Assembly (NCBI GenBank): GCA_016931775.1
Contig: JAFGEC010000648.1
Span: 1 to 41,705 of the forward strand
DNA length: 41,705 nt
Direction of reading: 5' to 3'
Origin: Candidatus Zhuqueibacterota bacterium
GTDB taxonomy: Bacteria > Zhuqueibacterota > Zhuqueibacteria > Residuimicrobiales > JAFGEC01
This document shows, piece by piece, positions 452-32,798 of the stretch. Numbering within the stretch: position 1 is the first letter of the stretch; each line of letters begins with the position of its first letter. Position numbers and translations under genes: made by a program. The notes below the pieces were generated by a model that was given only the letters and a program-made list of their open reading frames with translations, did not search any database and was not told where the DNA came from.

Positions 452-1600
<1,149 letters not shown>

Positions 1601-1602
1601 AC

Positions 1603-3159: not shown

Positions 3160-3247
3160 CTTTGGTAGCATGGTTTGAAACGTTTGATAGTCAGGATAAA
3201 AAAATCCGGACAGAACAAATTGTGAAAAAATTAAGGAATTAAAATTT

Positions 3248-5662: not shown

Positions 5663-5861
5663 CGGATGAGTCGACCTGTATTTAAAACAAAACAGGTATT
5701 TGATGCGACACTCATAATGGTTTCGAGATGCTTAATTCGTTGACAGGAGTTGCTAATATGAAAATTATGGTTTTAATTTGTATCTTTTTGACGAAAGAGG
5801 TGATTGATTTTTTACAATCTGCTATTTATATTTTTTGAAATAAATAAAGGACGAATTCAAA
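5663..5861. other. 199-base intergenic region with imperfect inverted repeat
   Basis: There is no supported gene. Bases 5666-5714 can fold: ATGAGTCG pairs imperfectly with CGACACTCAT, and ACCTGT (5674-5679) pairs with ACAGGT (5692-5697) around a 12-base loop. No T-run follows, so calling it a terminator is weak. AAAGGA at 5846-5851 is the ribosome site of the next gene. Confidence 0.35.
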
Positions 5862-7904
5862 ATGACGTTCAAGTTTTGCCGATATACCAATTGGATTCAC
5901 AGATTTTATAGGCCGTTCAGCTATTTATCTTATATTTTTCCTGTTTTCAGTGCCGTGCTTTTCACTTTCAGTTTTCTCTCTTTTGGTTTCGCCCAATCCA
6001 CTGCTGCTGCAAAATGGGTGGGAACCTGGAGCACGGCACCACAACTCGTTGAAACGAGCAACAATCCCCCTTCGCCGGGCTTGAGCAATAATACGCTTCG
6101 ACAAATCGTTCACGTTTCAATCGGCGGTGATAGTTTACGGATGCGGTTTTCCAATGAATTCAGTAACAGTCCTGTCACATTGAAATCAATTCATATGGCG
6201 GTATCCACGGGCAGCAGCGCGATCGACACGACCACTGACAAAACGCTGTACTTTAACGGGGCACCTGAAGTTACAATAGAGGCGGGTGCTGCGGTGACCT
6301 CAGATCCTTTTGAATTTGATTTACAGCCGTTGAGCAATGTGGCAATCACGATCTATTTTGGCCAAACCTCCCCGGATGTGACCGGTCATCCCGGATCTAG
6401 AACCACCTCATATTTGCTGAGGGATAATCAGGTGACACGGGATATCTTTTCAGGTGCAGTGAGGACGGATCACTGGTATGTGATTAATACGATCGACGTT
6501 ATGGCGCCGGACACTTCATATGCCGTTGCAGTACTAGGCAACTCGATTACAGATGGACGGGGTTCGGGAACAAACAAACAAAATCGCTGGCCGGATGAAC
6601 TTGCCCGGAGGCTTCAGGCAAATCCCGCCACACAACACGTGGCCGTATTAAACGAAGGAATCGGCGGCAATTGTGTCCTTGGAGCATGTTTGGGCCCTTC
6701 CGCCATCAGCCGGTTTGAACGCGATGTGATCAATCAGAACGGCATCAAATGGCTCATTATTCTTGAAGGAATCAATGATATAGGCAATTCCTCGGGATCA
6801 GGCGTCGGGAACAGACTGATTGACGCTTATCAGCAGATGATATACAGCGCCCACGCCAATGGTTTCTTTGTATATGGCGCAACACTACTTCCCATGGGTC
6901 ATTCATTTTACTATTCAGTGGCTCATGAAACCGAAAGACAAATCGTCAATGAATGGATCCGGAACAGCGGTGAGTTTGATGCGGTTATCGATCTTGATAT
7001 GGCGCTGCGTAATCCGGCGGATACGCTCAGTCTCCGGCCTGAGGCGGATACAGGGGATCATCTCCATCCAAACGAAACGGGCCACCGGTTAATGGCTGAG
7101 GCTGTTGATCTGAATTTATTTTCAGGCAGTGATTCTGTGGACTTTACTGACAAGATAAGGATGATTTACTTTGAGCCTGAATGTGCCACAGTAGGTGAGA
7201 ATTGGGATATACTCTCCGATGCCCAGGCGTCAAACAAGACATATGTCACGGTCAAATCCGGAATACAAAGCATTAACGCGGCGCCCTCCGGTAGTGAGAG
7301 CACTATTTTAATTCCATTTTCCGTGGATTCGGCCGGGAATTACTCCGTATTCGCCAGGTTAAATTGTCCGACCTACGATGACGATTCATACTGGGTAAAA
7401 ATGGACGATGGGACGTATAAAATGTATAATGGATTAGCGACCGGCGGATGGGAATGGAAAAAATTTGACGATTATTCATTGTCGGAAGGCGGACACACCC
7501 TGACCATTGCTTATCGTGAGGATGGAGCGAAACTCGATAAAATATGCATCTCAAATGCGTCCTATATCCCTATGGGAATGGGCGAAGAGGCGGAAAACAT
7601 TTGTGATCCGGTCGGTGTAAAAAACTCCAAACGAGCTCCTGTTGGTTATGCCCTGGAACAGAATTATCCGAATCCGTTTAATCCGATCACTTTTATCACA
7701 TACTCCATACCCGAAAAGAGCTTCATCTCTCTCAAGCTGTGGAATCTTCTCGGAGAGGAGGTTAAAACGCTCTACGAAGGTGTCCGTCAACCGGGTGACT
7801 ATACGGAAAGCTTCAATGCCGAAGGATTACCAAGCGGCATCTATTTCTACAGGTTAAAAACCGAAAATTTTAGTGAAACAAAACAATTCATTTTATTAAA
7901 ATAA
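5862..7904 (+). CDS. Secreted SGNH/GDSL esterase with sugar-binding-like module and type IX-like sorting domain
   Basis: Predicted extracellular SGNH-fold esterase, perhaps a carbohydrate deacetylase. After a long basic n-region and hydrophobic stretch, the signal peptide ends near FAQ (residue 45). Residues 50-210 are a beta-rich N-domain starting WVGTWSTAPQ, common in this subfamily. The SGNH blocks are complete: Ser228 in GNSITDG, Gly268 in NEGIGGN, Asn305 in EGINDIG, and Asp399/His402 in DHLHPN. Residues about 435-570 look like a carbohydrate-binding beta-sandwich (YFEPE to GHTLTIAYREDGAKLDKICI). Residues 595-680 are a C-terminal sorting domain with NYPNPFNP at 601-608 and the ending GIYFYRL...FILLK, implying export by a PorSS/T9SS-like route. 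AAAGGA lies 10 bases before the ATG. Thirteen bases separate it from the next gene. The ester substrate is unknown. Confidence 0.88.
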   Translation: MTFKFCRYTNWIHRFYRPFSYLSYIFPVFSAVLFTFSFLSFGFAQSTAAAKWVGTWSTAPQLVETSNNPPSPGLSNNTLRQIVHVSIGGDSLRMRFSNEFSNSPVTLKSIHMAVSTGSSAIDTTTDKTLYFNGAPEVTIEAGAAVTSDPFEFDLQPLSNVAITIYFGQTSPDVTGHPGSRTTSYLLRDNQVTRDIFSGAVRTDHWYVINTIDVMAPDTSYAVAVLGNSITDGRGSGTNKQNRWPDELARRLQANPATQHVAVLNEGIGGNCVLGACLGPSAISRFERDVINQNGIKWLIILEGINDIGNSSGSGVGNRLIDAYQQMIYSAHANGFFVYGATLLPMGHSFYYSVAHETERQIVNEWIRNSGEFDAVIDLDMALRNPADTLSLRPEADTGDHLHPNETGHRLMAEAVDLNLFSGSDSVDFTDKIRMIYFEPECATVGENWDILSDAQASNKTYVTVKSGIQSINAAPSGSESTILIPFSVDSAGNYSVFARLNCPTYDDDSYWVKMDDGTYKMYNGLATGGWEWKKFDDYSLSEGGHTLTIAYREDGAKLDKICISNASYIPMGMGEEAENICDPVGVKNSKRAPVGYALEQNYPNPFNPITFITYSIPEKSFISLKLWNLLGEEVKTLYEGVRQPGDYTESFNAEGLPSGIYFYRLKTENFSETKQFILLK

Positions 7905-7917
7905 GGACAATCATTCC

Positions 7918-9492
7918 ATGAAAAAAAAATATTTCATTTTTAATGCCCTTATTTCTACATTACTACATATCATGATGTTCACACAGGTTAATTCAGCTCA
8001 AAACCCTGTTATTCATGCCGATGTCCCGGATATGTCCATGATCCGGGTGGGCGACACCTATTACATGAGCAGCACCACCATGCATATGAATCCCGGTGTG
8101 CCGATCATGAAATCCAAAGACCTTGTCAACTGGGAAATCGTAAATTATGCTTACGATATTCTGGATGACGTGGATGAGCTGAATCTGAAGAATGGGAAAA
8201 GTTCCTACGGCCGGGGATCGTGGGCAAGCTGCATACGTTACCACGACGGACTGTATTACGTGAGTACTTTTTCAGGTACAACCGGAAAGACCTATATCTA
8301 TTCAACACCGGATATTGAGAACGGGCCCTGGAACACAATTTCATTCACACCTTCTTATCACGATCATACCATATTTTTTGATGATGACGGACGCATTTAC
8401 ATGATATGGGGCGTTGGCAGACTCCGGATGGTTGAACTAAAAGAAGACCTTTCCGGAGTAAAGGAAGGTACGGAAATGGTTCTTATAGAGAATGCAAGCG
8501 CACCGGCCGGATCCAATATTGGACTCCCTTCTGAAGGTTCCCAACTATTCAAGGTAAATGGTAAATATTATCTGTTTAACATTACCTGGCCAAGGGGCGG
8601 CATGCGTACCGTTATTCTTCACCGCGCCGACAAAATCACAGGCCCATACGAAGGAAAACTTGCCTTACAGGACAAGGGAGTGGCCCAGGGAGGTCTGATC
8701 GATACGCCTGACGGCAGATGGTTTGCCTATCTGTTCCGTGATTATGGTGCCGTCGGCCGCATCCCCTATCTTGTACCTTTAAAATGGGAGGATGGCTGGC
8801 CAGTTCTGGGCGTTGACGGTCAAGTGCCCGATACGTTGAACCTGCCTGCCGGTAAAGGCCTGATCCCGGGTATCGTGGCTTCCGATGAGTTCGAACGCGG
8901 TGAGAATGATCCGGTGCTGCCTTTGGTTTGGCAATGGAACCACAATCCCGACAATGAACTTTGGTCAGTTACCCGGCGGAAAGGTTATCTGCGGCTGACG
9001 ACCGGACGAATTGACACGACGTTTTTATCGGCAAGAAATACGTTGACTCAACGGACGATCGGTCCCGAATGCACGGGTTCAACCTCCATCGATGTATCCG
9101 GTATGAAGGAAGGAGATTTCGCCGGTCTCGCCCTTTTACAAAAAAAATACGGTTTGGCCGGAGTCAAATTTGACAATGGAGTCAAGTCGGTGGTTATGGT
9201 AAACGCCGCATCAGGCCATCCTGTTGAAATTGAAAGCGTGCCTGTCTCGCAGAAAACAGTGTATCTGAAAGCAGAGTGCGATTTCGGGGATCGTGCCGAC
9301 GTTGCTTATTTTTTCTACAGTCTCGATGGTCAATTATGGAGACCGATCGGCAATCAACTCAGGATGGAATACACTTTACCTCATTTTATGGGTTATCGAT
9401 TCGGATTATTTAACTATGCGACTAAAACCGCAGGTGGATATGCCGATTTTGATTTTTTTCATATCGATGATCGGATGACCGAAAAGAATTAA
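7918..9492 (+). CDS. GH43 beta-xylosidase/arabinofuranosidase with C-terminal beta-sandwich
   Basis: Secreted GH43 of the beta-xylosidase / arabinofuranosidase type (resembling subfamily 12). A signal peptide ends near VNSAQ (residue 28). Catalytic candidates are Asp38 in ADVPDMSMIRVG (base), Asp149 in SYHDHTIFFDDDG (stabiliser) and Glu206 in PSEGSQLFK (acid). The propeller runs to about residue 310. From about 320 to 518 there is a concanavalin A-like domain (Xyl-C type), beginning ASDEFE and ending GGYADFDFFHID, which in this family helps shape the active-site pocket. The length of 524 aa matches the two-domain family. AAGGA at 7903-7907 overlaps the upstream stop region, and the start is 13 bases after the SGNH gene, so the pair is likely co-transcribed. 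Confidence 0.92.
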   Translation: MKKKYFIFNALISTLLHIMMFTQVNSAQNPVIHADVPDMSMIRVGDTYYMSSTTMHMNPGVPIMKSKDLVNWEIVNYAYDILDDVDELNLKNGKSSYGRGSWASCIRYHDGLYYVSTFSGTTGKTYIYSTPDIENGPWNTISFTPSYHDHTIFFDDDGRIYMIWGVGRLRMVELKEDLSGVKEGTEMVLIENASAPAGSNIGLPSEGSQLFKVNGKYYLFNITWPRGGMRTVILHRADKITGPYEGKLALQDKGVAQGGLIDTPDGRWFAYLFRDYGAVGRIPYLVPLKWEDGWPVLGVDGQVPDTLNLPAGKGLIPGIVASDEFERGENDPVLPLVWQWNHNPDNELWSVTRRKGYLRLTTGRIDTTFLSARNTLTQRTIGPECTGSTSIDVSGMKEGDFAGLALLQKKYGLAGVKFDNGVKSVVMVNAASGHPVEIESVPVSQKTVYLKAECDFGDRADVAYFFYSLDGQLWRPIGNQLRMEYTLPHFMGYRFGLFNYATKTAGGYADFDFFHIDDRMTEKN

Positions 9493-9990
9493 AGGAGACC
9501 TCAAATAAAAAATAATAATTAAAGCGGCAGTGTTGTAAATTTTTCTTGTTTTAGCTGAATTCGTCAACGCGCAATGTTGAAGAGGTGCATGGAATATAAA
9601 AAAAGTCTTTTTACGTTAATATATTATTTATATATATATAATACTTTTTGGAGACAAATAAAGAATATAAAAACCCGTCGACTTTAACCTGTTGATTTCG
9701 ACTTTTTTTCTTCAGGCACAAGCGGATGGAAAAGTTGAAGCGAATCATGATGAACGTAAAAAAACCTAAAAAAAGCCTGGAGCCAGGCACAATTGTGAAC
9801 ATTGAGAGAAAGGAGAAAGAAAAAAAATTGTACACATGCAAAACCCACGGATGGATCTTTGCAAAATTCAGCAATTGCGAAAGTCACTTTACTAAAAGAA
9901 AGGAGGGAAAAAACAAATTGTTTTGCTGTTTTAGTCGTCTTTTAAAAATCCAATTAATTGTTCTATTCAATTTTTTAAAGGAGGAGCATC
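9493..9990. other. 498-base AT-rich leader/intergenic region
   Basis: No gene is supported. The region holds an A/T tract (about 9610-9645), a weak terminator-like hairpin at 9677-9709, a small GCCTGG-AG-CCAGGC inverted repeat at 9775-9788, and two internal purine-rich AAAGGAG-like sequences before the true ribosome site AAAGGAGG at 9977-9984. An open frame at 9726-10001 overlaps the next start and has no domain signal; I treat it as chance. The region probably carries the promoter and leader of the LamG gene. Confidence 0.55.
9677..9709 (+). terminator. Possible weak intrinsic terminator after GH43
   Basis: GTCGA (9677-9681) can pair with TCGAC (9698-9702) across a 16-base loop, directly followed by seven T. 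The stem is only 5 bp, so this is a weak candidate for ending the upstream transcript. Confidence 0.3.
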
Positions 9991-11073
9991 ATGTGCAGTA
10001 AACTTTATTATTTGTTGTTTTTTGGTCTGATGCTGGTTTTGACCGGAAGCCTGATGGCCCAGGATCCCGGCACGGCGAATCTGACTCACTTATGGACATT
10101 TGAGGACGGCACACTTAACGACCAGGTCGGTGAAGCAAATGGCGAATTTGTCGGTGATAACGCATTTGTGGATATGGGAGACATTGTCCTCGTTCCAGGT
10201 GCCGAGGGTATAGCTGATTCATGGGTTGAATTACCGGGTGATGCAATTGATCTTGCCGGTTACAGTGCGGTTTCGATTGCAGCCTGGTTTACACCGGCTC
10301 TGGAAAACACCCAGTGGAACGCACTCTGGTTTTTCGGCGATGACGGAGCCGGTAATGGTGTCGGTTCCGATGGTTTCTGCTTCCAGCCTTCCAGGGGTGA
10401 CAATGTGGCGCGTGTATGGATTTCATGCGGTAATCAATCAGCTCCATATTCTATTGAAGATGCCGTGGTTGATGCGATAGAATATAATGACCTGGATTTG
10501 CATCATGTCGTATGTGAACTCACTGAAAGTATGGAAATCGTGATGTACCATAACGGCGTATTTTTAGGTTCCTCTCCGCTGATAACGGATCCAGCGTTGG
10601 GTAAGGATAACGCCATCTGGAACATCAGTCCAAATTTCGCCCGTTTTGCTCATAGTTGCTATTCAGCCGACTACCCCTATTTGGGCTATATTCACGAGAT
10701 AGCGATTTTCAACAAAGAATTATCCGATGCCGAGGTCGCTTATCTTTACGGTGCTGGTGTGAATGGATTCCCCTCTACTGCCGTCAAAAACAACGAAGCA
10801 CCGCTACCCGAAGCATTCGGTCTGTCACAAAATTATCCGAATCCCTTCAATCCGTCAACAGAGTTTAGCTATACTTTGACGCAGACTGAGCATGTAAGGC
10901 TGACTGTTTTCGACGCCTTAGGCAGAGAAGTCGCGACACTGGCGGATGGGATTCAGAGCCAAGGCAAGCACGACATTACTTTTAACGCACAGGACTTGAC
11001 CAGCGGTGTCTATTACTACCAAATCCAGACTGAAACTGGTAAATTAACCAAAAAGATGGTTTTGATGAAATAA
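9991..11073 (+). CDS. Secreted LamG/concanavalin A-like protein with type IX-like sorting domain
   Basis: Predicted extracellular glycan-binding or adhesive protein without a visible catalytic domain. A signal peptide ends at LMAQ (residue 24). Residues about 28-255 form a laminin G / pentraxin-like jelly roll: LWTFEDGTLND at the start, AVSIAAWF near 93-100, LHHVV...MYHNGVFLG at 170-193, and YIHEIAIFNKELSDAEVAYLYG at the end. That last element is a classic LamG-like ending. Residues 275-360 are the sorting domain, NYPNPFNP at 281-288 and ending YYYQIQTETGKLTKKMVLMK. The ribosome site AAAGGAGG lies 6 bases before the ATG, among the strongest in the window, suggesting high expression. It has its own long leader and is followed by a hairpin, so it may be a single-gene unit. 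Its ligand is unknown. Confidence 0.88.
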   Translation: MCSKLYYLLFFGLMLVLTGSLMAQDPGTANLTHLWTFEDGTLNDQVGEANGEFVGDNAFVDMGDIVLVPGAEGIADSWVELPGDAIDLAGYSAVSIAAWFTPALENTQWNALWFFGDDGAGNGVGSDGFCFQPSRGDNVARVWISCGNQSAPYSIEDAVVDAIEYNDLDLHHVVCELTESMEIVMYHNGVFLGSSPLITDPALGKDNAIWNISPNFARFAHSCYSADYPYLGYIHEIAIFNKELSDAEVAYLYGAGVNGFPSTAVKNNEAPLPEAFGLSQNYPNPFNPSTEFSYTLTQTEHVRLTVFDALGREVATLADGIQSQGKHDITFNAQDLTSGVYYYQIQTETGKLTKKMVLMK

Positions 11074-11121
11074 GCAAGATATTACGGTAGATTATTGACA
11101 ATTTCCGGTTAATTTTGCTAA

Positions 11122-11149
11122 ATGCCGGAGCAATTTTTTGCTCCGGCAT
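11122..11149 (+). terminator. Strong hairpin, probable terminator or mRNA-stabilising stem
   Basis: ATGCCGGAGCAA (11122-11133) pairs perfectly with TTGCTCCGGCAT (11138-11149) across a TTTT loop: 12 bp, partly GC-rich. It begins 48 bases after the LamG stop. No clean T-run follows, so factor-independent termination is likely but not certain. Confidence 0.55.
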
Positions 11150-11252
11150 AAATATATTCAAACATCGGCAGAGGAAATTGGTCTGTCGGAAACGGCCGGG
11201 CCTTAAGTAAAAAACCAGGTCACCCCAAATCTCATGGAATCTACGATTCATT

Positions 11253-13511
11253 ATGACAAAACAAAAAAAAGCAGAAAAACAAATCAGGCTCGCTCAATTT
11301 AAAAAATTTATTTTCAGTATCGTACTGGTCGTATTACCGATCATCATTCTGGCAATTTTTGAGTTGTTTTTACGTTTAATACATTATGGTGATAATTTTA
11401 ACCTTTTTATTAACCTTGCTCCGGAAGATAATCAGAAATATAAAGTTGTTAATCCTGAGATCGGCAAAAAATACTTTAAGGTATTTTATCCTTCCCATCC
11501 GCGACATGATATGTTCACGAAGGAAAAGCCAAAAAATGGTTTTAGAGTGTTTGTGCTGGGCAGCTCAACGGTATTTGGCTTTCCGTATGAAGAAAATTTA
11601 ACTTTTTCGAAAATTCTGCACGAAAGATTGCAAGACAGTTACCCGGAAAAACATATAGAAGTTGTAAACACGGCTCTCACTGCAATCAATTCTTATACTT
11701 TACTGGACTTTATTGATGATATTTTAAAAGAAGAACCGGATGCTATACTTATTTACGCCGGACATAATGAATTTTACGGGGCCTTTGGAATCGGTTCGGT
11801 AGAAAGAGCAAATAAATACCGAAAACTAACATTTTTACATTTAGACCTTTTATCATCCAGGTCTTATCAGTTGTTGAGAAATATAATTAATACGGTTAGC
11901 CATTCCATGCAACGCGATAACAGACATGAGCCGGTTAAAGGTAAAGGCACTTTGATGAAGTTTATCGCTGACAGTAAGGAAATAGCTTATAAAGGTGATA
12001 TATACAACACCGGTATAAAAATTTTCAGAACGAATATGGAAGCACTATTATCAAAAGCGGCAAAAAAAAATGTCCCTGTTTTCATGAGTGAATTGATCAG
12101 TAATGTTAAAGATTTACCGCCATTTTGTTCTGTGGTAACAGATTCATTTCCCCTTGCTTCTGAAATATTCAATATGGCAAAACAATTTGAGAAAAACAGC
12201 GATTTTATAAAAGCCAAAGAAAATTACTACCTGGCGAAAGACCTGGATGGCGTCAGGTTCAGGGCTTCCGAGGAGATGAATGAAATCATTCAAAATTTGG
12301 CCGGCCAATACCATGCCGTGCTGGTTCCCATGAAAGAGCATTTCGAGAAAGCTTCGCCGAACCGGCTTATAGGTAACAATCTTTTAACCGAACACGTTCA
12401 TCCCAATATGGACGGATACTTTATAATGGCCGATGCCTTTTATCATAAAATTGTAGATTCAAAATTAATCGGTGATTCTGTCGAACCGGTTTTTTACAAG
12501 AATTCAGATTATTATAAAAAAAATTGGGCCTATACCGATCTCGATAGTCTGATTGGCGTTCATAAAATAAACAGTCTGCTCAGTTATTGGCCTTTTCAGC
12601 CATTAGATAACTCATCCGCCGGTTACCTGGATACCTATAAACCATTATCGATGGTGGATTCCCTGGCATTTGCTTTTGTGAAAAGCGCCGACCAGGATAT
12701 ACACGGCGCCCATATAAAAATGGCGGAATTTTACAAAGCAACAAGGGATTATTTCAGGGCTTTCAAGGAGTACCATGCTGCCATAAAAAGTAATCCGTTC
12801 ATAGCCAAAGATTATCTCGAAGCGGCAAGTTGCCTGATGGCTACCAACGATTTTTCCTTGGCGCTGCAATTTTTTGATCAATCGCTGCAATTACAGGAAA
12901 CGTTTTTTGCACATTATAATAAAAGTGAAATATTTTTCCTGATGGGAGGTTATGAAGAGGCTGTTAATGCCTTGAATTTTGCCCTTGAGTTAGAAAATAC
13001 GCCGGAATCCCGGGAAAAAGTGTTGAAAAGGATGCATAAAATATATTTTTATTCCGGAAATAAAAATAAAATGTCTGAAACCCTGGGGGAAATAAAAAAA
13101 ACAGATCCCGGTTATCAGCCGGCTTTCCCCGAGAATAAAAAAAGTTTTGCTTTTTTAATTCCTTTACAGGTTAAAGACCGGGTTGAAAAGGCGTATCGAT
13201 TATACAGTTCCGGTCATTTTGACCGGGCCCTCACAGAATTCCTGGTTTCACTCGAGATAAAAGAAACATCGCTTGCAAATCGTTGTGTCGGTGATATCCT
13301 GTTTTCCCAGGGCAACAGCAAAGCGGTCATATATTATCAAAAAGCCTATCCCGGTTACAAATATGATGTGGACTTTTTAGTGAATCTGGCCATTCTTTAC
13401 GTGCAGAATAAATCAGAAAAAAAGGCAGGTGAAATTTTAAAAGAAATCAAACAACTTGATCCGGAAAACAAAAAAATACATCTGCTTGAAGAAAATCTTC
13501 GGCATCTGTAA
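11253..13511 (+). CDS. Membrane-anchored SGNH-hydrolase-like protein with C-terminal TPR repeats
   Basis: A basic N-terminus is followed by one membrane segment (about residues 19-42), so the rest probably sits in the periplasm on an inner-membrane anchor. Residues about 97-400 are SGNH-like: GSSTVFG with Ser104/Ser105, GHNEFYG with Asn172, and EHVHPN with His383. The usual acidic partner is Glu380 rather than Asp. Residues about 480-750 carry tetratricopeptide-like helix pairs (AHIKMAEFYKATRDYFRAFKEY; EIFFLMGGYEEAVNALNFAL; LAILYVQNKSEKKAGEIL). Similar SGNH-TPR fusions occur in FCB bacteria, role unknown. The gene is clearly AT-rich (row 11881-11940 has 24/60 G+C), unlike the enzymes around it. 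No strong ribosome site is visible. It may serve envelope acylation rather than polysaccharide breakdown. Confidence 0.8.
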   Translation: MTKQKKAEKQIRLAQFKKFIFSIVLVVLPIIILAIFELFLRLIHYGDNFNLFINLAPEDNQKYKVVNPEIGKKYFKVFYPSHPRHDMFTKEKPKNGFRVFVLGSSTVFGFPYEENLTFSKILHERLQDSYPEKHIEVVNTALTAINSYTLLDFIDDILKEEPDAILIYAGHNEFYGAFGIGSVERANKYRKLTFLHLDLLSSRSYQLLRNIINTVSHSMQRDNRHEPVKGKGTLMKFIADSKEIAYKGDIYNTGIKIFRTNMEALLSKAAKKNVPVFMSELISNVKDLPPFCSVVTDSFPLASEIFNMAKQFEKNSDFIKAKENYYLAKDLDGVRFRASEEMNEIIQNLAGQYHAVLVPMKEHFEKASPNRLIGNNLLTEHVHPNMDGYFIMADAFYHKIVDSKLIGDSVEPVFYKNSDYYKKNWAYTDLDSLIGVHKINSLLSYWPFQPLDNSSAGYLDTYKPLSMVDSLAFAFVKSADQDIHGAHIKMAEFYKATRDYFRAFKEYHAAIKSNPFIAKDYLEAASCLMATNDFSLALQFFDQSLQLQETFFAHYNKSEIFFLMGGYEEAVNALNFALELENTPESREKVLKRMHKIYFYSGNKNKMSETLGEIKKTDPGYQPAFPENKKSFAFLIPLQVKDRVEKAYRLYSSGHFDRALTEFLVSLEIKETSLANRCVGDILFSQGNSKAVIYYQKAYPGYKYDVDFLVNLAILYVQNKSEKKAGEILKEIKQLDPENKKIHLLEENLRHL

Positions 13512-14712: not shown

Positions 14713-16938
14713 ATGTTTGGTCGAATCGCTTCAGCAGGATTATACTTGGCAGTTTTTTCGGCGTTCGCACAATCCGGAGAGCGGGTGGATTTAGGACGCC
14801 TGCCAACCGGGGCAACGTTTTCTTTTGTTCGTACAGGGGGAGGTGAATGGGGTATCGATATCTCGGGCGGTGCTGTTCCGCGTCTGTCGCAACAGAAACC
14901 GGCGAAAATCGAGGCCTTTCAAAGTGAAAATGTTTTCCGGGTTCTTGCAGCCGGGTACCAGACCATCAGCCGGGATTCCTCAGGTATAATTGCCAGCGCC
15001 GAAATAACCTGCGAAAAAAATGTAAAGTTTCGTGTGTTGGACCACTGGGACATGAACGGAGCGGTCGTGTCGGTGCGCAGAAAGGTGGAAGTAACGGGGA
15101 CCGCACAGACCGGATTCAACTCGTCTGTCGTGTTCACAGTCGATCCTTCCGTACCCTGGAGTGACCTGCATTGTCTGGCCCCTGGCGCGCTTTACGGTGA
15201 TCCCGAATACAACGGCGGACGATCACCCGGCGGCACGTTAAACTATGAAGCGCGTCGATTCCTGATGCGCGAGGATATTCTCCCCTCTCCCCTGTTCGCA
15301 CTCTCTTTCAGCAACGGCACTTCGGTGGCGATGCTGGATCCATCTCCGCGAGGCGAATCGACCGTCGAGGAGACGAAACTTTTAAAGGATGTGATGACAG
15401 ACTCGAGATTTTTATTCGGCACGCTGGGAGCGTGGCAGGCGGACGGGTGTCCAATTGAATTCGGTTTCCAGTTTCCCGGTTCAACGGCACAATTCGCATT
15501 CGATCCCAAAACATCTGAAAAACCCCGTTGGATCCGGCGTTTTCATCCGGTGGCCCAGGGAGTTGTTCACAGTTACGAGGTGCGTTTCCGGTTCGGTCTC
15601 GACGAGTCGTTCCGGGACGTCACTCGAAACACGTGGCGGTGGGCGTGGAATACGTTAAAGCCGGCGATTGCACCGGTCGACGTCGAGCAGATGCGCCGTG
15701 TTCTGACGGACCACCTGGCCGCACAGGCTGCCACCATTGACGGACGCACAGCCATTCCTTTTGCAGTCGCTACATTTGATACAAGCGCTCCTCAATGGAA
15801 TTGGACAATGGCGGCAATGGGATTTGTGAGCAAGAACATCGAATGTGCGGACCAGTTACTGCGCGAGGCCGAGCGTGACAGTGCCAAACGAGGTCAAGAG
15901 ATGCGACAGATCGGCCTTTCCATTATTTCTTCCATGATCCGGGCGCTTCCGACCGTACCTCTCGATGCGACCGGGTACGATCTGGCTACCGGAAAACCAT
16001 GGACGGGTGAACGGCAGGAATGGCTCGCACCATGGCTCCGTAACGCCACCGAGGGAATGCGCGTGCTTGTGCGTGTTTACCGGCGTGAACGTGATCTCGG
16101 CCGCCTTCATCCAGAGTGGTTCAATTGGGTCAAGGCCTATGTCGAGTGGCTGGTCCGGCAACAGAGGGATGACGGCTCTTTTCCCCGGCGGTGGCACTCC
16201 GGAAGCAACGAGGTCGCAGAACCGACGGGAACGACAAGCTACTGCCCTGTGCCGCTCCTGGTCGTGATGACTGAAGAGACCGAAAATCCCATGTTTTTAC
16301 AGGCGGCTGTCCGCGCGGCAGAATATGTTTGGAAGAATTGGGGAAGCCGGGGATTTTATGTTGGCGGCGCCAGTGATAATTCGAATATCACCGACAAGGA
16401 AGCTGGCATGCTGGCACTGGAAGCCTTCCTGGCTCTATATGAGTCGACCCGGGAATCCAAATGGCTGGAACGTGCGAAATCGGCGGCTGACTATGCCGAA
16501 AGCTGGATATGGATATGGAACCTGCCGATGCCGGTCGATGCGGATAACGCAAAACTCCACTGGAAGAAAGGTGTGCCGACTGTTGGACTTCAGGGAATAA
16601 CGGCCCGTGGAGCAGGCGGCGTGGATGAGTATATGGACTGGTCGGCATCATCTTATGCAAAACTGTACAGTTACACGAATGATCCGCATTACCTGGATGT
16701 CGCACGGATTCTGCTTCACGCCACAAAATCCATGGTCGCTCTTCCGGGACGATTGTACAATATGAAGGGCATCGGATGGCAGCAGGAGCACTGGCGTTTG
16801 GGGCCTGGTAGATATGGCCGCGGCGTCGGGGGGCACCGGTTCTGGCTGCCCTGGATTTCAGCCAATCATCTGTACAGCATAACCGGTTTGGAAGAATTCG
16901 ACCCGGTCCTGTATGACCGGCTCTCAAAAGGGAAGTAA
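14713..16938 (+). CDS. Secreted protein of unrecognised family, probable beta-sandwich plus (alpha/alpha)6 glycosidase-like
   Basis: I do not recognise the family. ATG 14713 is chosen because it opens a signal peptide ending near SAFAQ (residue 20); the frame stays open upstream to 14539 but that part overlaps the previous gene. Residues about 25-300 are beta-rich, many alternating aromatic strands. From about 305 the protein becomes helical and aromatic (TWRWAWNTLKP, WFNWVKAYVEWLVRQQRDDGSFPRRWHSGS, GGASDNSNITDKEAG, ALEAFLALYESTRESKWLERA, DWSASSYAKLY). This helix-hairpin pattern with Trp/Asp/Glu at the loops is typical of six-hairpin glycosidases and some polysaccharide lyases. Asp/Glu in SDNSNITDKEAG and EVAEPTGTTSY are candidate active-site residues. 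It is GC-richer than the SGNH-TPR gene. Setting suggests a role on plant polysaccharide. Confidence 0.7.
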   Translation: MFGRIASAGLYLAVFSAFAQSGERVDLGRLPTGATFSFVRTGGGEWGIDISGGAVPRLSQQKPAKIEAFQSENVFRVLAAGYQTISRDSSGIIASAEITCEKNVKFRVLDHWDMNGAVVSVRRKVEVTGTAQTGFNSSVVFTVDPSVPWSDLHCLAPGALYGDPEYNGGRSPGGTLNYEARRFLMREDILPSPLFALSFSNGTSVAMLDPSPRGESTVEETKLLKDVMTDSRFLFGTLGAWQADGCPIEFGFQFPGSTAQFAFDPKTSEKPRWIRRFHPVAQGVVHSYEVRFRFGLDESFRDVTRNTWRWAWNTLKPAIAPVDVEQMRRVLTDHLAAQAATIDGRTAIPFAVATFDTSAPQWNWTMAAMGFVSKNIECADQLLREAERDSAKRGQEMRQIGLSIISSMIRALPTVPLDATGYDLATGKPWTGERQEWLAPWLRNATEGMRVLVRVYRRERDLGRLHPEWFNWVKAYVEWLVRQQRDDGSFPRRWHSGSNEVAEPTGTTSYCPVPLLVVMTEETENPMFLQAAVRAAEYVWKNWGSRGFYVGGASDNSNITDKEAGMLALEAFLALYESTRESKWLERAKSAADYAESWIWIWNLPMPVDADNAKLHWKKGVPTVGLQGITARGAGGVDEYMDWSASSYAKLYSYTNDPHYLDVARILLHATKSMVALPGRLYNMKGIGWQQEHWRLGPGRYGRGVGGHRFWLPWISANHLYSITGLEEFDPVLYDRLSKGK

Positions 16939-17057
16939 AACCGGATATTATGGATCATATCTCGAGAGTTTATAATTTTCCGGATATCGGCCTGCCGCAT
17001 TCTCATAAATGCCGGGCCCTGCTGGATGATTGATAGATAATAAAAATGGAGAACACA

Positions 17058-18239
17058 ATGAAGATATGTATTTTTCTTGTTATTGTGTGTGGATTTTTGC
17101 CTGTTTTCTTACACGCACAGCAAGCGAATGTCAACCTGGACTACAATCCACAAAAGAACACGGAGAATCTTATTCCGTTCAGTGCTCCGCTCAATTCACC
17201 GGACGTGCGTGACGATCGAACTGTTACCTTTCACGTGAAAGCCCCGGCAGCGGAAAAAATCGAGCTCTCGGGGCCGGTGATGATCGCTCTGGGACCCCGG
17301 GTCCGTACCATGCCGTTCGAAAAAGGCGAAGACGGTATCTGGTCTCTGACTGTCGGACCGCTCGAACCGGACATGTACATTTACTATTTCGTGATCGACG
17401 GCGTGCGCGTGGCGGATCCCAGCAATACTGTGGCCGGATTTACCGCCATGCCGCCGTACAGCCAGCTCGTGGTCCACGGGGACGGGCCGGCCTATTACGA
17501 CGCGCGTCATGTCCCGCACGGCAATGTAACGCGCCATGTGTACCATTCACAAGTGACCCAAGGCGAACGTGAAATGTATGTATATACACCACCCGGATAC
17601 AGTGCGGACAAGACTTACCCTGTTTTGTATCTGGTGGGCGGCAGTGGTGATCTGCCTTCGAATTGGGTATATGACGGACGCGTGAACTTTATGATGGACA
17701 ACCTGCTGGCGGAAGGGCTGGCCCAGCCCATGATCATTGCCATTCCTAACAATCAGGTGATCCATCGCAATCATCCAAAGCATGTGGAGCTTACCTTTGA
17801 TATTTTTGAAAAGGAATTACGGCAGCATGTGATTCCGCTGGTGGAAAGTCAATACAGCGTCATCAAAAGCCCCAAAGGCCGTGCCTTGTCGGGATTATCC
17901 ATGGGCGGCCGTCATACCATGTTTATCGGATTCAGGAGTCTTGACCTGTTTGGTTCTTTCGGTGTGCTGAGTGCCGGACATGTGGACAGTGAAAATGTTT
18001 TATCCGCGTTCCTCAACGATCCGGCAGTCAGTGAAAAAGTCGATTATTTGTTCGTGGGACAGGGTACGCATGAGGCGACCGGCCGCATGGGTACGCGATG
18101 CGCAAAGCTGCATGAAGCTTTGGAAAAACACGGTATTGAACACGAGTACTATGTAGGTGGTCATGGCGCTCATGACTGGGCAACCTGGCGTCACCTGATC
18201 TATTTCCGTTTTTTGCGGAATTTATGGCGAAAGAACTGA
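17058..18239 (+). CDS. Secreted CE1-type esterase with E-set domain, altered oxyanion motif
   Basis: Second CE1-like esterase of the window. ATG 17058 is preferred over 17046 because GGAG (17048-17051) then sits at proper spacing and the signal peptide (ending LHAQ, residue 21) is clean. Residues about 45-140 are the E-set domain (GIWSLTVGPLEPDMYIYYFVIDG), very like that of the 452-1600 gene. The esterase follows with Ser281 in GLSMGG and His372 in GAHDWATWR. The acidic partner is less clear (Glu339 in GQGTHEA). The normally conserved HG after the first core strand reads YLVGGSGD, so the oxyanion loop is changed. Length 393 aa is normal. It is followed within about 65 bases by the small beta-sandwich protein. 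Likely a feruloyl or acetyl esterase on hemicellulose. Confidence 0.83.
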   Translation: MKICIFLVIVCGFLPVFLHAQQANVNLDYNPQKNTENLIPFSAPLNSPDVRDDRTVTFHVKAPAAEKIELSGPVMIALGPRVRTMPFEKGEDGIWSLTVGPLEPDMYIYYFVIDGVRVADPSNTVAGFTAMPPYSQLVVHGDGPAYYDARHVPHGNVTRHVYHSQVTQGEREMYVYTPPGYSADKTYPVLYLVGGSGDLPSNWVYDGRVNFMMDNLLAEGLAQPMIIAIPNNQVIHRNHPKHVELTFDIFEKELRQHVIPLVESQYSVIKSPKGRALSGLSMGGRHTMFIGFRSLDLFGSFGVLSAGHVDSENVLSAFLNDPAVSEKVDYLFVGQGTHEATGRMGTRCAKLHEALEKHGIEHEYYVGGHGAHDWATWRHLIYFRFLRNLWRKN

Positions 18240-18304: not shown

Positions 18305-19036
18305 ATGCATATTTTTAAAAGTGTTATGATGGCGGTCATCATGATTTTGATTGGATTAGCATCCCAGGGCTACTCTGCCACACCTGGCGGCTCGAACAGC
18401 AGCATGACGGACAGCGATGCGAGTGACAGCAGCGTGATTTACTTCAAGCCTGTCACTTTGTCCCCCAAGGCTCCGGACGGGGATGGCTTTCTCCAGCGCT
18501 GGTTGCTTCTCGAACCGATCGACAAGCCGAATCGTACCAATACGGTGTTTACAGACAGTTACCTCCGTGAAGTGTTCCATACCGAGTATTTTTCCAACCA
18601 GTTCACCCTGGTGCCGAACGACGGCGACAAAGTGACTGTTGCCGATCAAGAACTCACCTGGCATGCCCTGGATGCCACCGGTTTCAACGTCAAACTCTTT
18701 CGTTTCGCATCCGGTCTGGACACGCAGATTTACGGTGTCCTGTTTTGGGCGGTTACCGTCGTCAATAGCCCACGGGAGATGAAAAATGTTCGTATGGCGG
18801 TCGGTTCCAATTCGGCTTCTATGTGGTGGCTCAACGGCGAGGAAGCCGTTCTCCTTACAGGTGACCGCCGTATGGTGATGGATGATTTTGTATCCAAACG
18901 CCTCACGCTTAAAAAGGGACAAAACATCATACGCGGTACCGTTATCAACGGGCCCGGTATGAGTGATTTTTGCGTACGCTTTATTGATGAGAATGGTGAA
19001 CCGGTCAAGGATCTCACGACACGCTTTGAAAAATAA
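18305..19036 (+). CDS. Small secreted beta-sandwich protein (galactose-binding-like)
   Basis: A 243-residue secreted protein; its signal peptide ends near YSA (residue 25). After a Ser/Asp-rich linker, FLQRWLLLEPIDKP (62-75) matches the opening of a beta-sandwich module often fused to CE1 esterases and glycosidases. VRMAVGSNSASMWWLNGEEA (162-181) and LKKGQNIIRGTVINGPG (202-218) look like the paired strands of PA14/CBM-like sandwiches, in which 'G-S-D-D-x-x-x-V-W-L-N-G' is common. No catalytic residues are evident. It lies between a CE1 esterase and an arabinanase-like GH43, with AAGGAG at 18293-18298. I infer a polysaccharide-binding accessory subunit; here it stands alone rather than as a fused module. 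Confidence 0.75.
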   Translation: MHIFKSVMMAVIMILIGLASQGYSATPGGSNSSMTDSDASDSSVIYFKPVTLSPKAPDGDGFLQRWLLLEPIDKPNRTNTVFTDSYLREVFHTEYFSNQFTLVPNDGDKVTVADQELTWHALDATGFNVKLFRFASGLDTQIYGVLFWAVTVVNSPREMKNVRMAVGSNSASMWWLNGEEAVLLTGDRRMVMDDFVSKRLTLKKGQNIIRGTVINGPGMSDFCVRFIDENGEPVKDLTTRFEK

Positions 19037-19083: not shown

Positions 19084-20535
19084 ATGAAATCCCGAATTCT
19101 CACAGGAGCAGTTTCGATCCTGCTCTTTCTCTGTCTGTCTGTTCCGGTTGTAGCTCAGGAAGGTGAAGTTTTTATCCATGATCCCTCGACAATAACATTG
19201 TGCGATGGCAAATATTATACTTTCGGTACAGGCGGTGGCGGCCTGATTTCCAACGACGGTTGGATATGGCGCAGAGGCGCCGAGCGTCCCGGCGGTGGAG
19301 TGGCTCCGGACGTCATCCACATCGGGGACCGCTACTATGTGACCTATGCCAAAGGAGGGGGCGGATTGGGAGGCGGACACGCCAGCAATGTCTACGTCAT
19401 GTGGACCAAAACGCTCGATCCCGAATCCCCCGACTTTGGATTTAAAGATGAAATAATTGTCGCCTCGTCTGACGGTGAAGAGGACTGCGATGCAATCGAT
19501 TCGGCGTTCCTTCTCGATCCCACTGACGGCAGACTGTGGCTCACCTACGGAACCTATTTTGGTTTCATACGGATCGTCGAGCTCGATCCCAAGACAGGGA
19601 AACGTATCCCGGGCAACCAGGCCGTGAATATCGCCATTGACTGTGAAGCGACCGCAATGATGTATCGCGACGGCTGGTACTACCTGCTCGGCACTCACGG
19701 CACATGCTGTGACGGTCCCAATTCGACTTATAACATCCGCGTGGGACGATCAAAAAAGGTGACGGGTCCCTACGTGGATAATATGGGTATACCCATGCTC
19801 AAAGGCGGCGGTAAACTTGTGGCAGCCGCCAACGGTCCCTTAATCGGAGCGGGGCACTTTGGCCTGCTTGATCTGGGGGACGGTGTTCAGAAATTCTCCT
19901 GCCATTATGAAGCCGATCTGCGTAAAAGTGGCTTGAGCGTGCTGAGCATTCAACCGTTGCTTTGGAAAGACGGCTGGCCGGTTGGCGGCGAAAATTTCAG
20001 GGAAGGTACATATCAGATTTTATCCGAGCGCAGCGGCTACGTGCTTGAATTGGTCGTGGATTTTGTACGAATGCCGCGCACCACGAGGTGGTTTCGACGT
20101 CAAAATGATGAACCGGTGAAGCCGGTTCCGCCGCAGACACTCGATGACGTGGTAAATGAATGGCCGGCCGGAAAAATTGACGTTCGCATGGGCGATTTTA
20201 TGGTCCGGCCCCATCAAAAGTGGACGATCACACCTGTCGACAGCGTCGGCGGTTATCCCGGTTCGCCCTTTTTCAAGATCACGATCTCCGGAACAGACCG
20301 TGCGCTGGCTGCAACGGCAGATTTGGAAGTCGTGACGGTCCCTGCCTTTACCGGCGATCCTGAACAGCTCTGGCGCATCGACCAATTGATTGACGGCACT
20401 TACCGTATTATGCCAAAAGTCGTGCCCAATACAAAGGAGGCATATGCGCTGATGGCAGTGGGCGCCAGAACCCCCACACTTGCCAAGTTCGATCCGGAAA
20501 GCGACAATTCTCGCTGGAATTTTAAAATGCAGTAA
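19084..20535 (+). CDS. GH43 arabinanase-like enzyme with C-terminal ricin-like module
   Basis: Secreted GH43 most like endo-alpha-1,5-L-arabinanases, expected to act on pectic arabinan. A signal peptide ends at VVAQ (residue 25). Candidate residues are Asp33 in FIHDPSTI (base), Asp139 in DAIDSAF (stabiliser) and Glu188 in IDCEATAMMYRDGWYYLL (acid). A Gly-rich loop (GGGGLGGGH, 91-99) is unusual but in frame. The propeller ends with LSIQPLLWKDGWPVGGEN, a typical arabinanase finish. Residues about 308-483 resemble a ricin-type beta-trefoil (GTYQILSERSGYVLEL, then PEQLWRIDQLIDGTYRI and SRWNFKMQ). GGAGG at 19075-19079 is a good ribosome site. The enzyme is one of few possible endo-acting ones here. 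Confidence 0.85.
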   Translation: MKSRILTGAVSILLFLCLSVPVVAQEGEVFIHDPSTITLCDGKYYTFGTGGGGLISNDGWIWRRGAERPGGGVAPDVIHIGDRYYVTYAKGGGGLGGGHASNVYVMWTKTLDPESPDFGFKDEIIVASSDGEEDCDAIDSAFLLDPTDGRLWLTYGTYFGFIRIVELDPKTGKRIPGNQAVNIAIDCEATAMMYRDGWYYLLGTHGTCCDGPNSTYNIRVGRSKKVTGPYVDNMGIPMLKGGGKLVAAANGPLIGAGHFGLLDLGDGVQKFSCHYEADLRKSGLSVLSIQPLLWKDGWPVGGENFREGTYQILSERSGYVLELVVDFVRMPRTTRWFRRQNDEPVKPVPPQTLDDVVNEWPAGKIDVRMGDFMVRPHQKWTITPVDSVGGYPGSPFFKITISGTDRALAATADLEVVTVPAFTGDPEQLWRIDQLIDGTYRIMPKVVPNTKEAYALMAVGARTPTLAKFDPESDNSRWNFKMQ

Positions 20536-21847
<1,312 letters not shown>

Positions 21848-21971
21848 CAGATTTTTTTTAAAGGTGATTCGTTTTCTGCAAATTCTGTACGAGTGATCTG
21901 GACACAGTGAACAGCTGGGCAAAAAGAAAAAGTTAAAGAATAAGAATTTTATAAAAAAAGGATTTAAAAAT

Positions 21972-24900
21972 ATGAAAATAGCCAGAGCGATATTTTGGAT
22001 TCTGTGTGGTTTTTCCATGATGGCTTTTTTGCCGGGCAGTGAAAAAGCCAAAATTCCGATTTATCTTAACACGAGCTATTCCTTCCAGGAAAGAGCAGTC
22101 GATCTGGTTTCAAGACTGACTCTTGAGGAAAAACAAAGTTTGATTGGTAATAATATGCCGTCGGTTCCCCGTCTCGGAATCAATAGATTTAATGTTTGGT
22201 CGGAAGCTCTGCATGGAGTGATGGGAGGATTTAGAATGCGTGCGGAGGGTGGTTCTCCAACTTCATTCCCAAATAGCGTGGCTCTTGGTTCGTCATGGGA
22301 TCCGGATTTAATGCAAAGAGAAGCTGCTGCTATTTCAGATGAGGCCAGAGCATTAAATTCTCCGGTGATTACCGGTCTGACTTACTGGTCGCCGGTCGTC
22401 GAACCCATAAGAGATCCCAGGTGGGGACGAACCGGGGAATCATATGGTGAGGATCCTTTCCTGGTATCCGAGATTGCAGGTGGATTTGTCAGAGGGATGA
22501 TGGGCAGTGATGCGACATACCTGAAAACTGTACCCTGCGGCAAGCACTATTTTGCAAATAACAGCGAATTTAACCGGCATGTCAGCAGTTCGAATATGGA
22601 CAGCAGGGATATGAGAGAGTTCTACCTCACTCCGTATAAAAATCTAATTGAGAAAGACAAACTGCCGTCTATCATGACTTCATACAATGCTGTAAACGGT
22701 GTACCGACCTCAGCCAGTAAATGTTACCTCGATACCCTGGCCAGAAGGACATGGGGTTTAAAAGGATATATAACGGGTGACTGTGCAGCCATTGAGGATA
22801 TTTATACCGGTCACTATTATGTAAAAACAGCCGAAGAAGCAACCGCTCAGGGCTTGAAGGCAGGGGTGGACATTGACTGCGGAAGTGTATATCAAAGAAG
22901 TGCAATCGATGCCCTGAACAAGGGACTCATCGCCATGGCGGATATCGACCGAGCTCTGGTGAACATCTTTACCATCAGAATGAGATTGGGTGAATTCGAT
23001 CCTCCTGAAATGGTTCCGTATTCACTTTCAGAACAGAGTGTGATTGGCTCACCGGCCAACAAGGCACTGGCAAAAGAAATCGCCACAAAAACGCCTGTTT
23101 TGCTTAAAAATAATATCCGCGCAAAAACAAACAGGAAAGCCTTGCCTTTGAATCCGTCCGAACTTTTAAAAATTGCCCTGCTCGGTCCTCAGGCCGATAA
23201 AGTTGAACTGGGACCCTATTCCGGAAGACCTGCACAGGAAGATATGATATCTCCTGCTGCCGGAATCAAAAAATACCTTTCAGAAAAAGGTCTTACCCCA
23301 AAAGTAATCGTTCGTTCCGGCGGAAGTACGGCAAGTAAAAGCAATCTGTTCTATATCGCCGGTTTTGAATTGCACAAATCCAATGGGAGTGTTACAAAAT
23401 TCGATGCCACAAAATTTAGTTCATCGTCAAAAGGAATAACGGTTGGTACCGGAATGGGATCGGAAGAGCAAGTCAGGACCATAAACGATGGATCGTGGAC
23501 GTCCTACGATAACATAAATCTGACGGACGTTGATACCATCGGAATCAGCTTGAATATTCCCACCGTAGGGGGAATCGTTGAAGTCAGAGTCGGTTCCCCG
23601 GAGGGGAATCTGCTGGGTATCCTAAATGCAACCGTTGCCGCCGGTGTAAGAGCAGGCGGAGTATATGGGGCCGGCCGTCTGATGAAAGTAAAAGCCAATA
23701 AACTCGGATTTAACGAACCTCAGACGCTCTATTTGGTATACAAGGCACCAGCCGATGAGAAAACTGATGACGAGACCATAGCAACCGCTGCATCCGCTGA
23801 TGTTGCCATTGTATTTGTCGGGACCGATGAAAAAACCGCCACAGAAGAAGCTGACAGGCTTACGCTTCTATTACCCGGAAATCAGATGGAGCTGATCAAG
23901 GCTGTGGCCGCCGTTAATCCGAATACCATTGTGGTCATGCAGACACTGGGCTGCGTTGAGGTTGAAGAATTTAAAAACCTTGAGAATATACCCGGAATTA
24001 TCTGGACCGGATTTAACGGTCAGGCACAGGGTGACGCCATTGCCGACATACTTTTCGGCGATGTAAATCCTGGCGGAAAGCTGAATGGTACCTGGTATAA
24101 ATCAGTTAAGGATCTTCCTGAAATCACCGATTATACGCTCAGGGGCGGTTCTGGAAAAAACGGACGCACATTCTGGTATTTCGACAAGGACGTTTCGTAT
24201 GAATTCGGATATGGTTTATCCTATACAACTTTCGAATATAGTCACTTCAAAGTCAGTCAAAACACCATTACGCCTCAAGATAAAATAACCATCAGTGTGG
24301 ATGTTGCGAATACAGGACATTACGATGGTGATGAAGTTGTCCAGATTTATATGAGAACACCGGCAAGTCCAGCATCGTTACAGAGACCCATTAAACGACT
24401 GAAAGGATTTAAGCGTTTAACGATACCGGCCGGGCAGACTAAAACAGTACAAATCGGCATCGATTGCACCGACCTCTGGTTCTGGGATATGGATAAAAAC
24501 AGGAAAACATTTGACCAGGGAAAATATATATTTGAGATCGGCGCCTCTTCAAAAGATATCAGGGGAACAGTCACCGCTACCATGAACGGCAAGTTTATCC
24601 CGGTTCTAAAAACTGTCGTGGCTGATTGCGGTGTAATGGTGATGAAAAAGGGAGCAAGTGCGCAAACCAGCGTGACGGCGGCAATGACGGATGACAGCTT
24701 TTATGATGTGACCAAAGCAAAAGTTGCTTATACCAGCAATAACCCAGCCGTTGCGGATGTTGACGGGAAAGGTCTGGTTACGGCAAAAGCAACGGGTGTT
24801 GCTACGATCACGGCTGACGTTACGATCGATGGACATACAAAATCCGGCAGTTTCCCGATCAAAATTATTCCGGATATGAAGCCGGTCAGTATTACCGTTC

Positions 24901-25808: not shown

Positions 25809-25865
25809 CCTGCTTTTTCAAAAATGCAAAGCCGTCAATGTAATGCAGAAAAATAAGATCGAAAA

Positions 25866-26867: not shown

Positions 26868-26908
26868 TCTCTATAGTTTAATTAAAATCAGAAAGGAGAT
26901 TTTATAAA

Positions 26909-30730: not shown

Positions 30731-30755
30731 ATCTTTCATAAAGAGGATTATTGAC

Positions 30756-31121
30756 ATGAAGAAGACGACTTTTTTTATTACAGCACTGCTGATTTTCAGT
30801 GGAGTACAAACAACCACTGCACAGGAAAAAGACAAAAAAAAGGTTGTTCCGGGTGAACAGGCACCTCCTGCCGACCCGGGCCAGAGGAATTTCGGCGGAT
30901 TTTTGTCCGGGCAGCAACGGCCACGACCGCAGCGTCCGCGTCCGGAACCGGAAGCTTTTAAAGGAGATAATTCCGGTCACGGAATGATTTTTACCACCTT
31001 TGAAGGGAAACGGCTGCTCATCATCCACCATGCTGAGGAAAGAGGACCACGTAAACCACAGCTTTACGGGATCGATGATTCCGGTGATAAATTGCTGCTT
31101 GGACCGAGATATTATCCGTGA
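30756..31121 (+). pseudogene. Orphan GH43 C-terminal fragment behind its own signal peptide
   Basis: A 121-residue frame starting at ATG 30756 (AAGAGG upstream), 26 bases after the GH3 copy B stop. Residues 1-23 are a good signal peptide ending TTAQ. Residues 24-70 are Lys/Pro/Arg-rich (QQRPRPQRPRPEPE). Residues 73-116 (SGHGMIFTTFEGKRLLIIHH, then PQLYGIDDSGDKLLLG) match the last propeller blade of GH43 enzymes. There, 'G-H-G-M-x-F-x-T-F-D-G' is followed by an 'R-x-x-L-F-E-I-E-D-x-G-D' ending. The first four blades and all catalytic residues are absent. It could be a pseudogene left by internal deletion, or a small secreted protein kept for another use; the frame and ribosome site are intact. 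Confidence 0.65.
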
Positions 31122-32778: not shown

Positions 32779-32798
32779 GTATTTCAATTAAAAAAATA

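Follow-up and report, generated by a model that had tools for sequence, protein, structure and literature searches.

A secreted-looking two-domain protein of an unnamed family, very probably a sugar-cleaving enzyme, in a carbohydrate-enzyme gene cluster of Candidatus Zhuqueibacterota

Contig JAFGEC010000648.1 of a Candidatus Zhuqueibacterota bacterium (assembly GCA_016931775.1) raises the question of what a 741-residue protein with no family name is doing in a cluster of carbohydrate enzymes. The window is this whole contig (C118), 41,705 nucleotides within a 7.2-Mb, 713-contig genome bin. A preliminary description, made from the letters alone, had taken the protein for a possible new glycosidase or lyase. 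It is very probably a sugar-cleaving enzyme, from an uncharacterised family of two-domain proteins. Feature positions are collected in Table 1.

The open frame spans 14539-16938 on the forward strand. Starting at the earliest possible codon, 14539, would make the gene run into its upstream neighbor, whose end is at 14630; the 741-residue protein begins at the ATG at 14713. Its methionine is followed by MFGRIASAGLYLAVFSAFAQ, which reads as a signal-peptide-like stretch. No strong Shine-Dalgarno motif is seen upstream of this ATG, so the start is likely rather than proven. The protein looks secreted, putatively to the periplasm or surface, and shows no type IX secretion tail. Relatives align across its whole length. 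In codon comparisons with five of them, third positions change far more than first and second; nonsynonymous divergence (dN) is 0.16-0.22 with synonymous divergence (dS) of 1.3-3.3 for four, and 0.29 for the fifth, where dS was not computable. The full-length alignment and this codon pattern show that the gene at 14713-16938 is real and under constraint, and the secreted 741-residue protein of the preliminary description stands, with a signal-like N-terminus. No second copy was found elsewhere in the same genome.

Six short peptide patterns, scanned once against 84,980 species genomes, yielded 39 related loci (handles beginning with L below), at 38-79% identity. By record titles and tree labels these come from at least eight phyla: Bacteroidota, Acidobacteriota, Planctomycetota, Pseudomonadota, Verrucomicrobiota, Ignavibacteriota, Calditrichota and Fidelibacterota. 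The spread is more than a binning artefact, because the gene also lies on long contigs of two cultured strains, one of 451 kb in Terriglobus albidus and one of 647 kb in Rhizomicrobium electricum. The core family is nonetheless rare in whole-genome surveys. It occurs in 3 of the 82 genomes surveyed from the window's phylum, one of them the window's own (3 more have distant C-domain matches), in 2/296 of a Bacteroidales-centred phylum sample and 2/200 of a Terriglobus-centred class sample (centre counted in each; 13 more with distant and 8 more with partial or distant matches, respectively), and in 1/249 of a Rhizomicrobium-centred phylum sample, this being the centre itself (2 more with short matches). 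The family tree mixes phyla, its starred branches forcing at least four label changes for Acidobacteriota and five for Bacteroidota; horizontal transfer appears likely, and paralogy and bin errors can add label changes too. A search of plasmid records added a near-full-length member from Deinococcus aetherius (39% identical) and distant members from Bacteroides finegoldii, Segatella hominis and Catenovulum adriaticum. The phage collection gave no match.

Does the protein belong to a named family? This was judged against Pfam cut-offs, NCBIfam and PDB sequences. It passes no Pfam family cut-off, with three sub-threshold matches at E up to 0.1, and has no match in NCBIfam or, by single-sequence search, among PDB sequences, both at E up to 1. 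The earlier failure to place it thus holds for these libraries, and the Pfam profile search brought no clear match to an established family of known activity.

Four families were considered and rejected. For GH127 (PF07944) the score is 24.5 bits against a cut-off of 24.9, over a best stretch of 26 residues (646-671), with a local match of 44% probability in profile comparison. GH127 enzymes have a conserved catalytic cysteine cluster; the best cysteine column here is C378, in 22 of the 32 sequences of the core alignment. GlcNAc 2-epimerase (PF07221), of the AGE superfamily, reaches 20 bits against 23.4. AGE enzymes have two catalytic histidines within the barrel, and His708 (31/32) and His659 (32/32) were compared with these by conservation alone. 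GH76 (PF03663) scores 14.6 against 25.9. Its catalytic pair is an adjacent Asp-Asp, whereas the invariant acidic motif here is D-K-E, a comparison of composition alone. GH88/GH105 (PF07470) has no Pfam match to the window protein, matches 8 of the 32 members at E up to 1 (best 0.0035), and gives a weak local match of 1.6% probability in profile comparison. GH127, GlcNAc 2-epimerase and GH76 recur weakly across the family (31, 29 and 25 of 32 members, Pfam, E up to 1), a pattern best read as a distant (alpha/alpha)6 toroid rather than as membership.

The family may already sit within an existing CAZy family or in earlier work, making the protein a new member; we consider this possible, on balance doubtful, and a naming matter compatible with either a hydrolase or a lyase. 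CAZy and dbCAN were not among the libraries compared, and the literature search, which found no paper on the family, covered open-access papers, with subscription papers mostly outside it. Speaking for an unnamed family, the Deinococcus, Bacteroides, Segatella and Catenovulum members are all annotated 'hypothetical protein', and NCBIfam over the 32 members (E up to 1) gave weak, scattered matches, the best at 0.0015, in at most 5 of them.

The AlphaFold2 model of the whole chain has a mean predicted local distance difference test score (pLDDT) of 89.7 and a predicted template modelling score of 0.90; the N-domain modelled alone has pLDDT 90.4. In the whole-chain model the beta-supersandwich covers roughly residues 24-296 and the barrel roughly 320-741. 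The model agrees with the beta-rich N-domain and helical, six-hairpin-type C-domain of the preliminary description, and fold comparison matches the latter to (alpha/alpha)6 families. For the N-domain the top five Foldseek places go to human galactose mutarotase (two chains), Slr1438, and a mutarotase-like protein from Streptomyces (two chains). VIA-align, in which missing entries were not taken as evidence, places the blood-group galactosaminidase 9ayu_A first (Z 16.0, root-mean-square deviation (rmsd) 3.1, 205 aligned), a PL26 rhamnogalacturonan lyase second (Z 15.8, rmsd 3.6, 229 aligned) and GH36 enzymes at lower ranks.

For the C-domain the best VIA-align match is 7tem_B (Z 28.6, rmsd 3.2, 341 aligned), and several cellobiose 2-epimerases and a D-mannose isomerase are among the highest scores, at Z about 27-28. 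These, together with the weak PF07221 match and the position of His708 just ahead of the last inner helix in the model, are what would make the protein a sugar epimerase or isomerase like those of the AGE superfamily. We think this quite unlikely: the PF07221 score lies under its cut-off, hydrolases share the fold at similar Z (GH76 up to 26.6, rmsd 3.8, 341 aligned; unsaturated glucuronyl hydrolase 25.5, rmsd 3.4, 323 aligned), and the window protein looks secreted and has an N-domain, unlike typical AGE enzymes. Known AGE enzymes are mostly cytosolic and single-domain.

Over the whole chain the two leading Foldseek matches are both the PL27 enzyme BACCELL_00875 (5no8 and 5nok, E 1.1e-10 and 4.6e-9), and VIA-align superposes both domains on 5no8 with Z 23.6 over 508 residues at rmsd 7.8. 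The best fold relatives, (alpha/alpha)6 sugar enzymes and PL27, thus support the suggestion of a glycosidase or lyase. By sequence PL27 is absent from the PDB searches, both single-sequence (E up to 1) and with the core and superfamily profiles (E up to 10). On the predicted structure the protein is built like PL27, yet it is not callable PL27, because those profiles miss the PL27 sequence. A distant relative bridging to PL27 was sought and none turned out to be PL27; PDB sequence searches with distant relatives L044, L043, L048 and L063 gave nothing useful. The superfamily profile instead finds GH76 as its best PDB match, at E 1.4e-9 over one local stretch of about 75 residues.

Conservation points to a candidate active site in the barrel. 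We used the core alignment and a wider superfamily alignment of 19 rows. The acidic cluster SDNSNITDKEAG singled out in the preliminary description is kept in the core family, with D555 in 29/32, N556 and N558 each in 30/32, and D561, K562 and E563 each in 32/32. Asp561 is found in 19/19 superfamily rows and Glu563 in 18/19, and Trp714 and Gly625 are also kept in all 19. In the model Asp561 lies immediately ahead of helix 562-579, which counts as an inner helix by the order in which the elements follow one another. Such barrels commonly carry catalytic residues at the N-end of an inner helix, and Asp561 is a candidate catalytic residue on this modelled position. Many other invariant residues cluster in loops preceding inner barrel helices. 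Arg186, Arg276, His659, Arg680, Lys618 and Lys672 are invariant in the core family, and His278 is in 31/32. A non-catalytic binding protein that retains an enzyme fold would be conceivable, as inactive enzyme-like proteins occur in such loci, an example being the inactive GH10 of a B. ovatus locus in the available part of PMC4491172. We regard it as highly unlikely given how strongly the charged residues of the pocket loops are conserved across at least eight phyla, and Asp561 across the superfamily.

We examined the neighborhood of the gene. The annotated genes of the contig all run in one direction. By Pfam they include three CE1-type esterases, three GH43, three GH3, GDSL enzymes, a PETase-like hydrolase, a carboxylesterase, a PF01120 fucosidase, a PF22848 arabinofuranosidase and a GH31, in agreement with the cluster of recognised carbohydrate enzymes described earlier. 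The contig is 0.58% of the genome, yet has 3 of its 13 PF00756 and 3 of its 25 GH43 matches. Around the relatives, 124 open reading frames (ORFs), picked by hand from 212 and scanned with Pfam without a random control, comprise 20 PF00756 esterases, 10 GH43, 10 GH54-type ArabFuran-catal, 9 SASA esterases, 6 GH97, 4 GH127 and 3 PF01120. In one of the two neighbor sets 4 of 59 are COesterase, a family that does not appear among those shown for the second set. The same types of neighbor lie within four genes of the family member in L003, L004, L012, L014 and L036. With one query, phmmer (E up to 10) picked out no GH88-like protein in the window or in 45 fetched loci, 336 predicted ORFs in all, and the window's Pfam matches include no uronate-processing gene. 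The Deinococcus member, which has no evident signal peptide, is in an operon with sugar ABC transport genes, a short-chain dehydrogenase, a phosphotriesterase-family protein, an FGGY kinase and a KDPG-type aldolase.

From all this we favor, at roughly even chances, a secreted exo-acting glycoside hydrolase of a family outside Pfam and NCBIfam, trimming side chains of an esterified, arabinose-rich hemicellulose. Counted for it are the confident two-domain sugar-enzyme fold, the conservation of Asp561 and Glu563, the GH76 match of the superfamily profile and the types of neighbor. The mutarotase-like N-domain would pack on the (alpha/alpha)6 barrel and help close its pocket; the active site would lie in the barrel, with Asp561 and nearby Glu563, at the N-end of the inner helix, as catalytic acid or base. 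Many (alpha/alpha)6 glycosidases are inverting, and the mechanism would most likely be single-step (inverting). The enzyme would remove a terminal neutral sugar from the side chains, with esterases, GH43, the PF22848-type arabinofuranosidase, GH31 and GH3 of the same cluster as its partners. Acylated, complex glucuronoarabinoxylan would be the leading candidate substrate because the gene set resembles the B. ovatus complex-xylan locus; feruloylated arabinan or arabinogalactan are possible alternatives.

The main competitor is a PL27-like polysaccharide lyase (L-rhamnose-alpha-1,4-D-glucuronate lyase), which would act by beta-elimination at a 4-linked uronic acid, in a cleft to which both domains contribute residues. 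The published PL27 architecture, in the available part of PMC8377490, is the same, a beta-sandwich with an (alpha/alpha)6 barrel, and the invariant arginines, lysines and His659 could, with His278, serve a lyase. Several observations weigh against a hydrolase: Foldseek's first match across both domains is a lyase, VIA-align puts PL26 lyases in second place for the N-domain, the distant Bacteroides finegoldii relative adjoins a GH88 gene, which suits a lyase, and the KDPG-type aldolase of the Deinococcus operon could serve uronate catabolism. The neighborhoods are also mixed, in a hand-chosen and uncontrolled sample. A uronate lyase is usually partnered by a GH88-like protein. Such a neighbor is absent from the 336 ORFs around the core family, which, with a Deinococcus operon that fits catabolism of a released aldose, is why we favor a hydrolase; the missing PL27 sequence match, the lack of a uronate-processing gene among the window's Pfam matches and the high whole-chain rmsd likewise speak against a lyase. 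We judge the lyase somewhat unlikely, and hydrolysis distinctly the more probable of the two.

Table 1. Features of the 41,705-nucleotide window around the two-domain protein
Feature	Position	Strand	Basis or remark
Two-domain protein gene, 741 amino acids (aa), secreted-looking	14713..16938	+	Stop at 16936-16938
Signal-peptide-like N-terminus, residues 1-19, MFGRIASAGLYLAVFSAFA	14713..14769	+	Sequence reading; low pLDDT at 15-21
N-domain, predicted galactose-mutarotase-like beta-supersandwich, about residues 22-300	14776..15612	+	Domain-alone model and fold searches
N-domain motif P157-x-x-x-Y161	15181..15195	+	P157, Y161 in 19/19 superfamily rows
N-domain motif Arg186-Glu187-Asp188	15268..15276	+	32/32 core rows; E187, D188 each 14/19 superfamily
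C-domain, predicted (alpha/alpha)6-type helical barrel, about residues 300-741	15610..16935	+	AlphaFold2 model, VIA-align
Motif S554-D-N-S-N-I-T-D561-K562-E563-A-G565, loop into inner helix 562-579, candidate catalytic residues	16372..16407	+	Model and alignments
PETase/DLH-like alpha/beta hydrolase, upstream; also adjoins family members in L003, L019, L042	13701..14630	+	Pfam
CE1-type esterase (PF00756), weak CBM48 match, downstream	17046..18239	+	Pfam
243-aa secreted-looking protein, no Pfam match	18305..19036	+	Relatives in L003, L004, L022, L023
GH43 with ricin-type lectin domain	19084..20535	+	Pfam
Upstream remainder: CE1-type esterase, GH43, alpha-L-fucosidase family (PF01120), GDSL esterase with type IX secretion system (T9SS) tail	452..13511	+	Pfam
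Upstream remainder, continued: GH43 with GH43_C2, LamG protein with T9SS tail, GDSL-TPR protein	452..13511	+	Pfam
Downstream remainder: CE1-type esterase, two GH3 with GH43_C2, 333-aa unknown, carboxylesterase/BD-FAE	20684..40934	+	Pfam
Downstream remainder, continued: alpha-L-arabinofuranosidase (PF22848/PF06964), GH31, GH3-PA14	20684..40934	+	Pfam

Several other features of the cluster were noted. The 243-aa protein is strongly conserved, has a WWLNG motif and travels with the cluster; a new binding module is one possibility for it, an accessory protein another. The 333-aa protein lies at 25866-26867 between two GH3 genes, with no Pfam match at E 0.001 and one relative, in L006. Por_Secre_tail domains, of type IX secretion, occur on the proteins at 5862-7904 and 9991-11073, and part of the cluster seems to be exported by the T9SS. 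In L014 four consecutive genes directly downstream of the family member (4459-11116) share a similarity cluster with a GH54-type arabinofuranosidase; one of the four, scanned alone, has no Pfam match at E 1e-5.

Among the family copies, the Sedimentisphaerales bin L024 has two in tandem (3949-6432 and 6535-8766), sharing 49% and 67% identity with the window protein, which suggests two subtypes in one locus. In the Terriglobia bin L022 (5399-7653) a copy is split across two overlapping frames, from a frameshift or an assembly error. Whole-genome searches found further unnamed clades, including L043/L059/L074, L044, L045, L077 and L082. A Pfam scan (E up to 0.01) covered ten distant relatives or C-domain matches: L048, L074, L059, L063 and L078 have no match, and L077 and L060 match solely below or at cut-off, L060 reaching C5-epim_C alone, at 23.4 bits against 23.3. 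L060, L061, L062, L063, L064, L068, L078, L079, L083 and L085 form a further clade of about 700-890 aa with local C-domain similarity. L065, L066 and L069 are DsbH/DUF255 proteins with the barrel alone in common and were not counted as members.

Esterified, branched arabinoxylans probably rank with the most resistant plant fibres, and few enzymes appear to be known for some of the linkages in their side chains. A family that spans at least eight phyla, has members in cultured soil bacteria and travels with CE1-type esterases and arabinofuranosidases is an expressible candidate for a missing step. Tentatively, it may be a new glycoside hydrolase (or lyase) family, one branch of an unnamed superfamily of mutarotase-like sandwich plus (alpha/alpha)6 barrel with the signature D-x5-D-K-E, acting on acylated arabinose side chains beyond the reach of described enzymes, for example at a linkage in feruloylated arabinoxylan side chains. 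Several sister families with this two-domain build, likewise unnamed, came to light as well. We see here a promising lead to a carbohydrate-enzyme family that is uncharacterised yet familiar in build, and not a system of a categorically new kind.

Among known systems, PL27 is the best Foldseek match over the whole chain and has the same two-domain build; it differs in sequence, and the window protein's neighborhood is one of esterases and arabinofuranosidases. The AGE superfamily (GlcNAc 2-epimerase, cellobiose 2-epimerase, YihS) shares the barrel at Z about 25-28 and weak local profile matches, whereas the window protein has an extra mutarotase-like N-domain, apparent secretion and a sub-cut-off Pfam score. 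The GH76 alpha-1,6-mannanases are alike in barrel and in the superfamily profile match, and unlike it in that the window protein falls under the Pfam cut-off, carries the extra N-domain and has a plant cell-wall context. GH127 beta-L-arabinofuranosidases are a helical-barrel family with an arabinose context and a near-threshold score; in GH127 neighbors the catalytic domain is N-terminal, whereas the barrel here is C-terminal, with no cysteine column beyond 22/32. In the available part of PMC4491172, the B. ovatus complex-xylan locus has a GH31 that is likely a xylan-specific alpha-xylosidase, a GH97 with activity toward an alpha-galactoside substrate and a GH95 that releases L-galactose. This locus, PUL-XylL, uses GH95 and GH115, neither of which is among the window's Pfam matches, the window having the unnamed protein instead. 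The two are alike in bringing GH31, GH43, GH3 and esterase genes together, and GH97 is found both in PUL-XylL and in the loci of the relatives (PMC4491172, in the same part).
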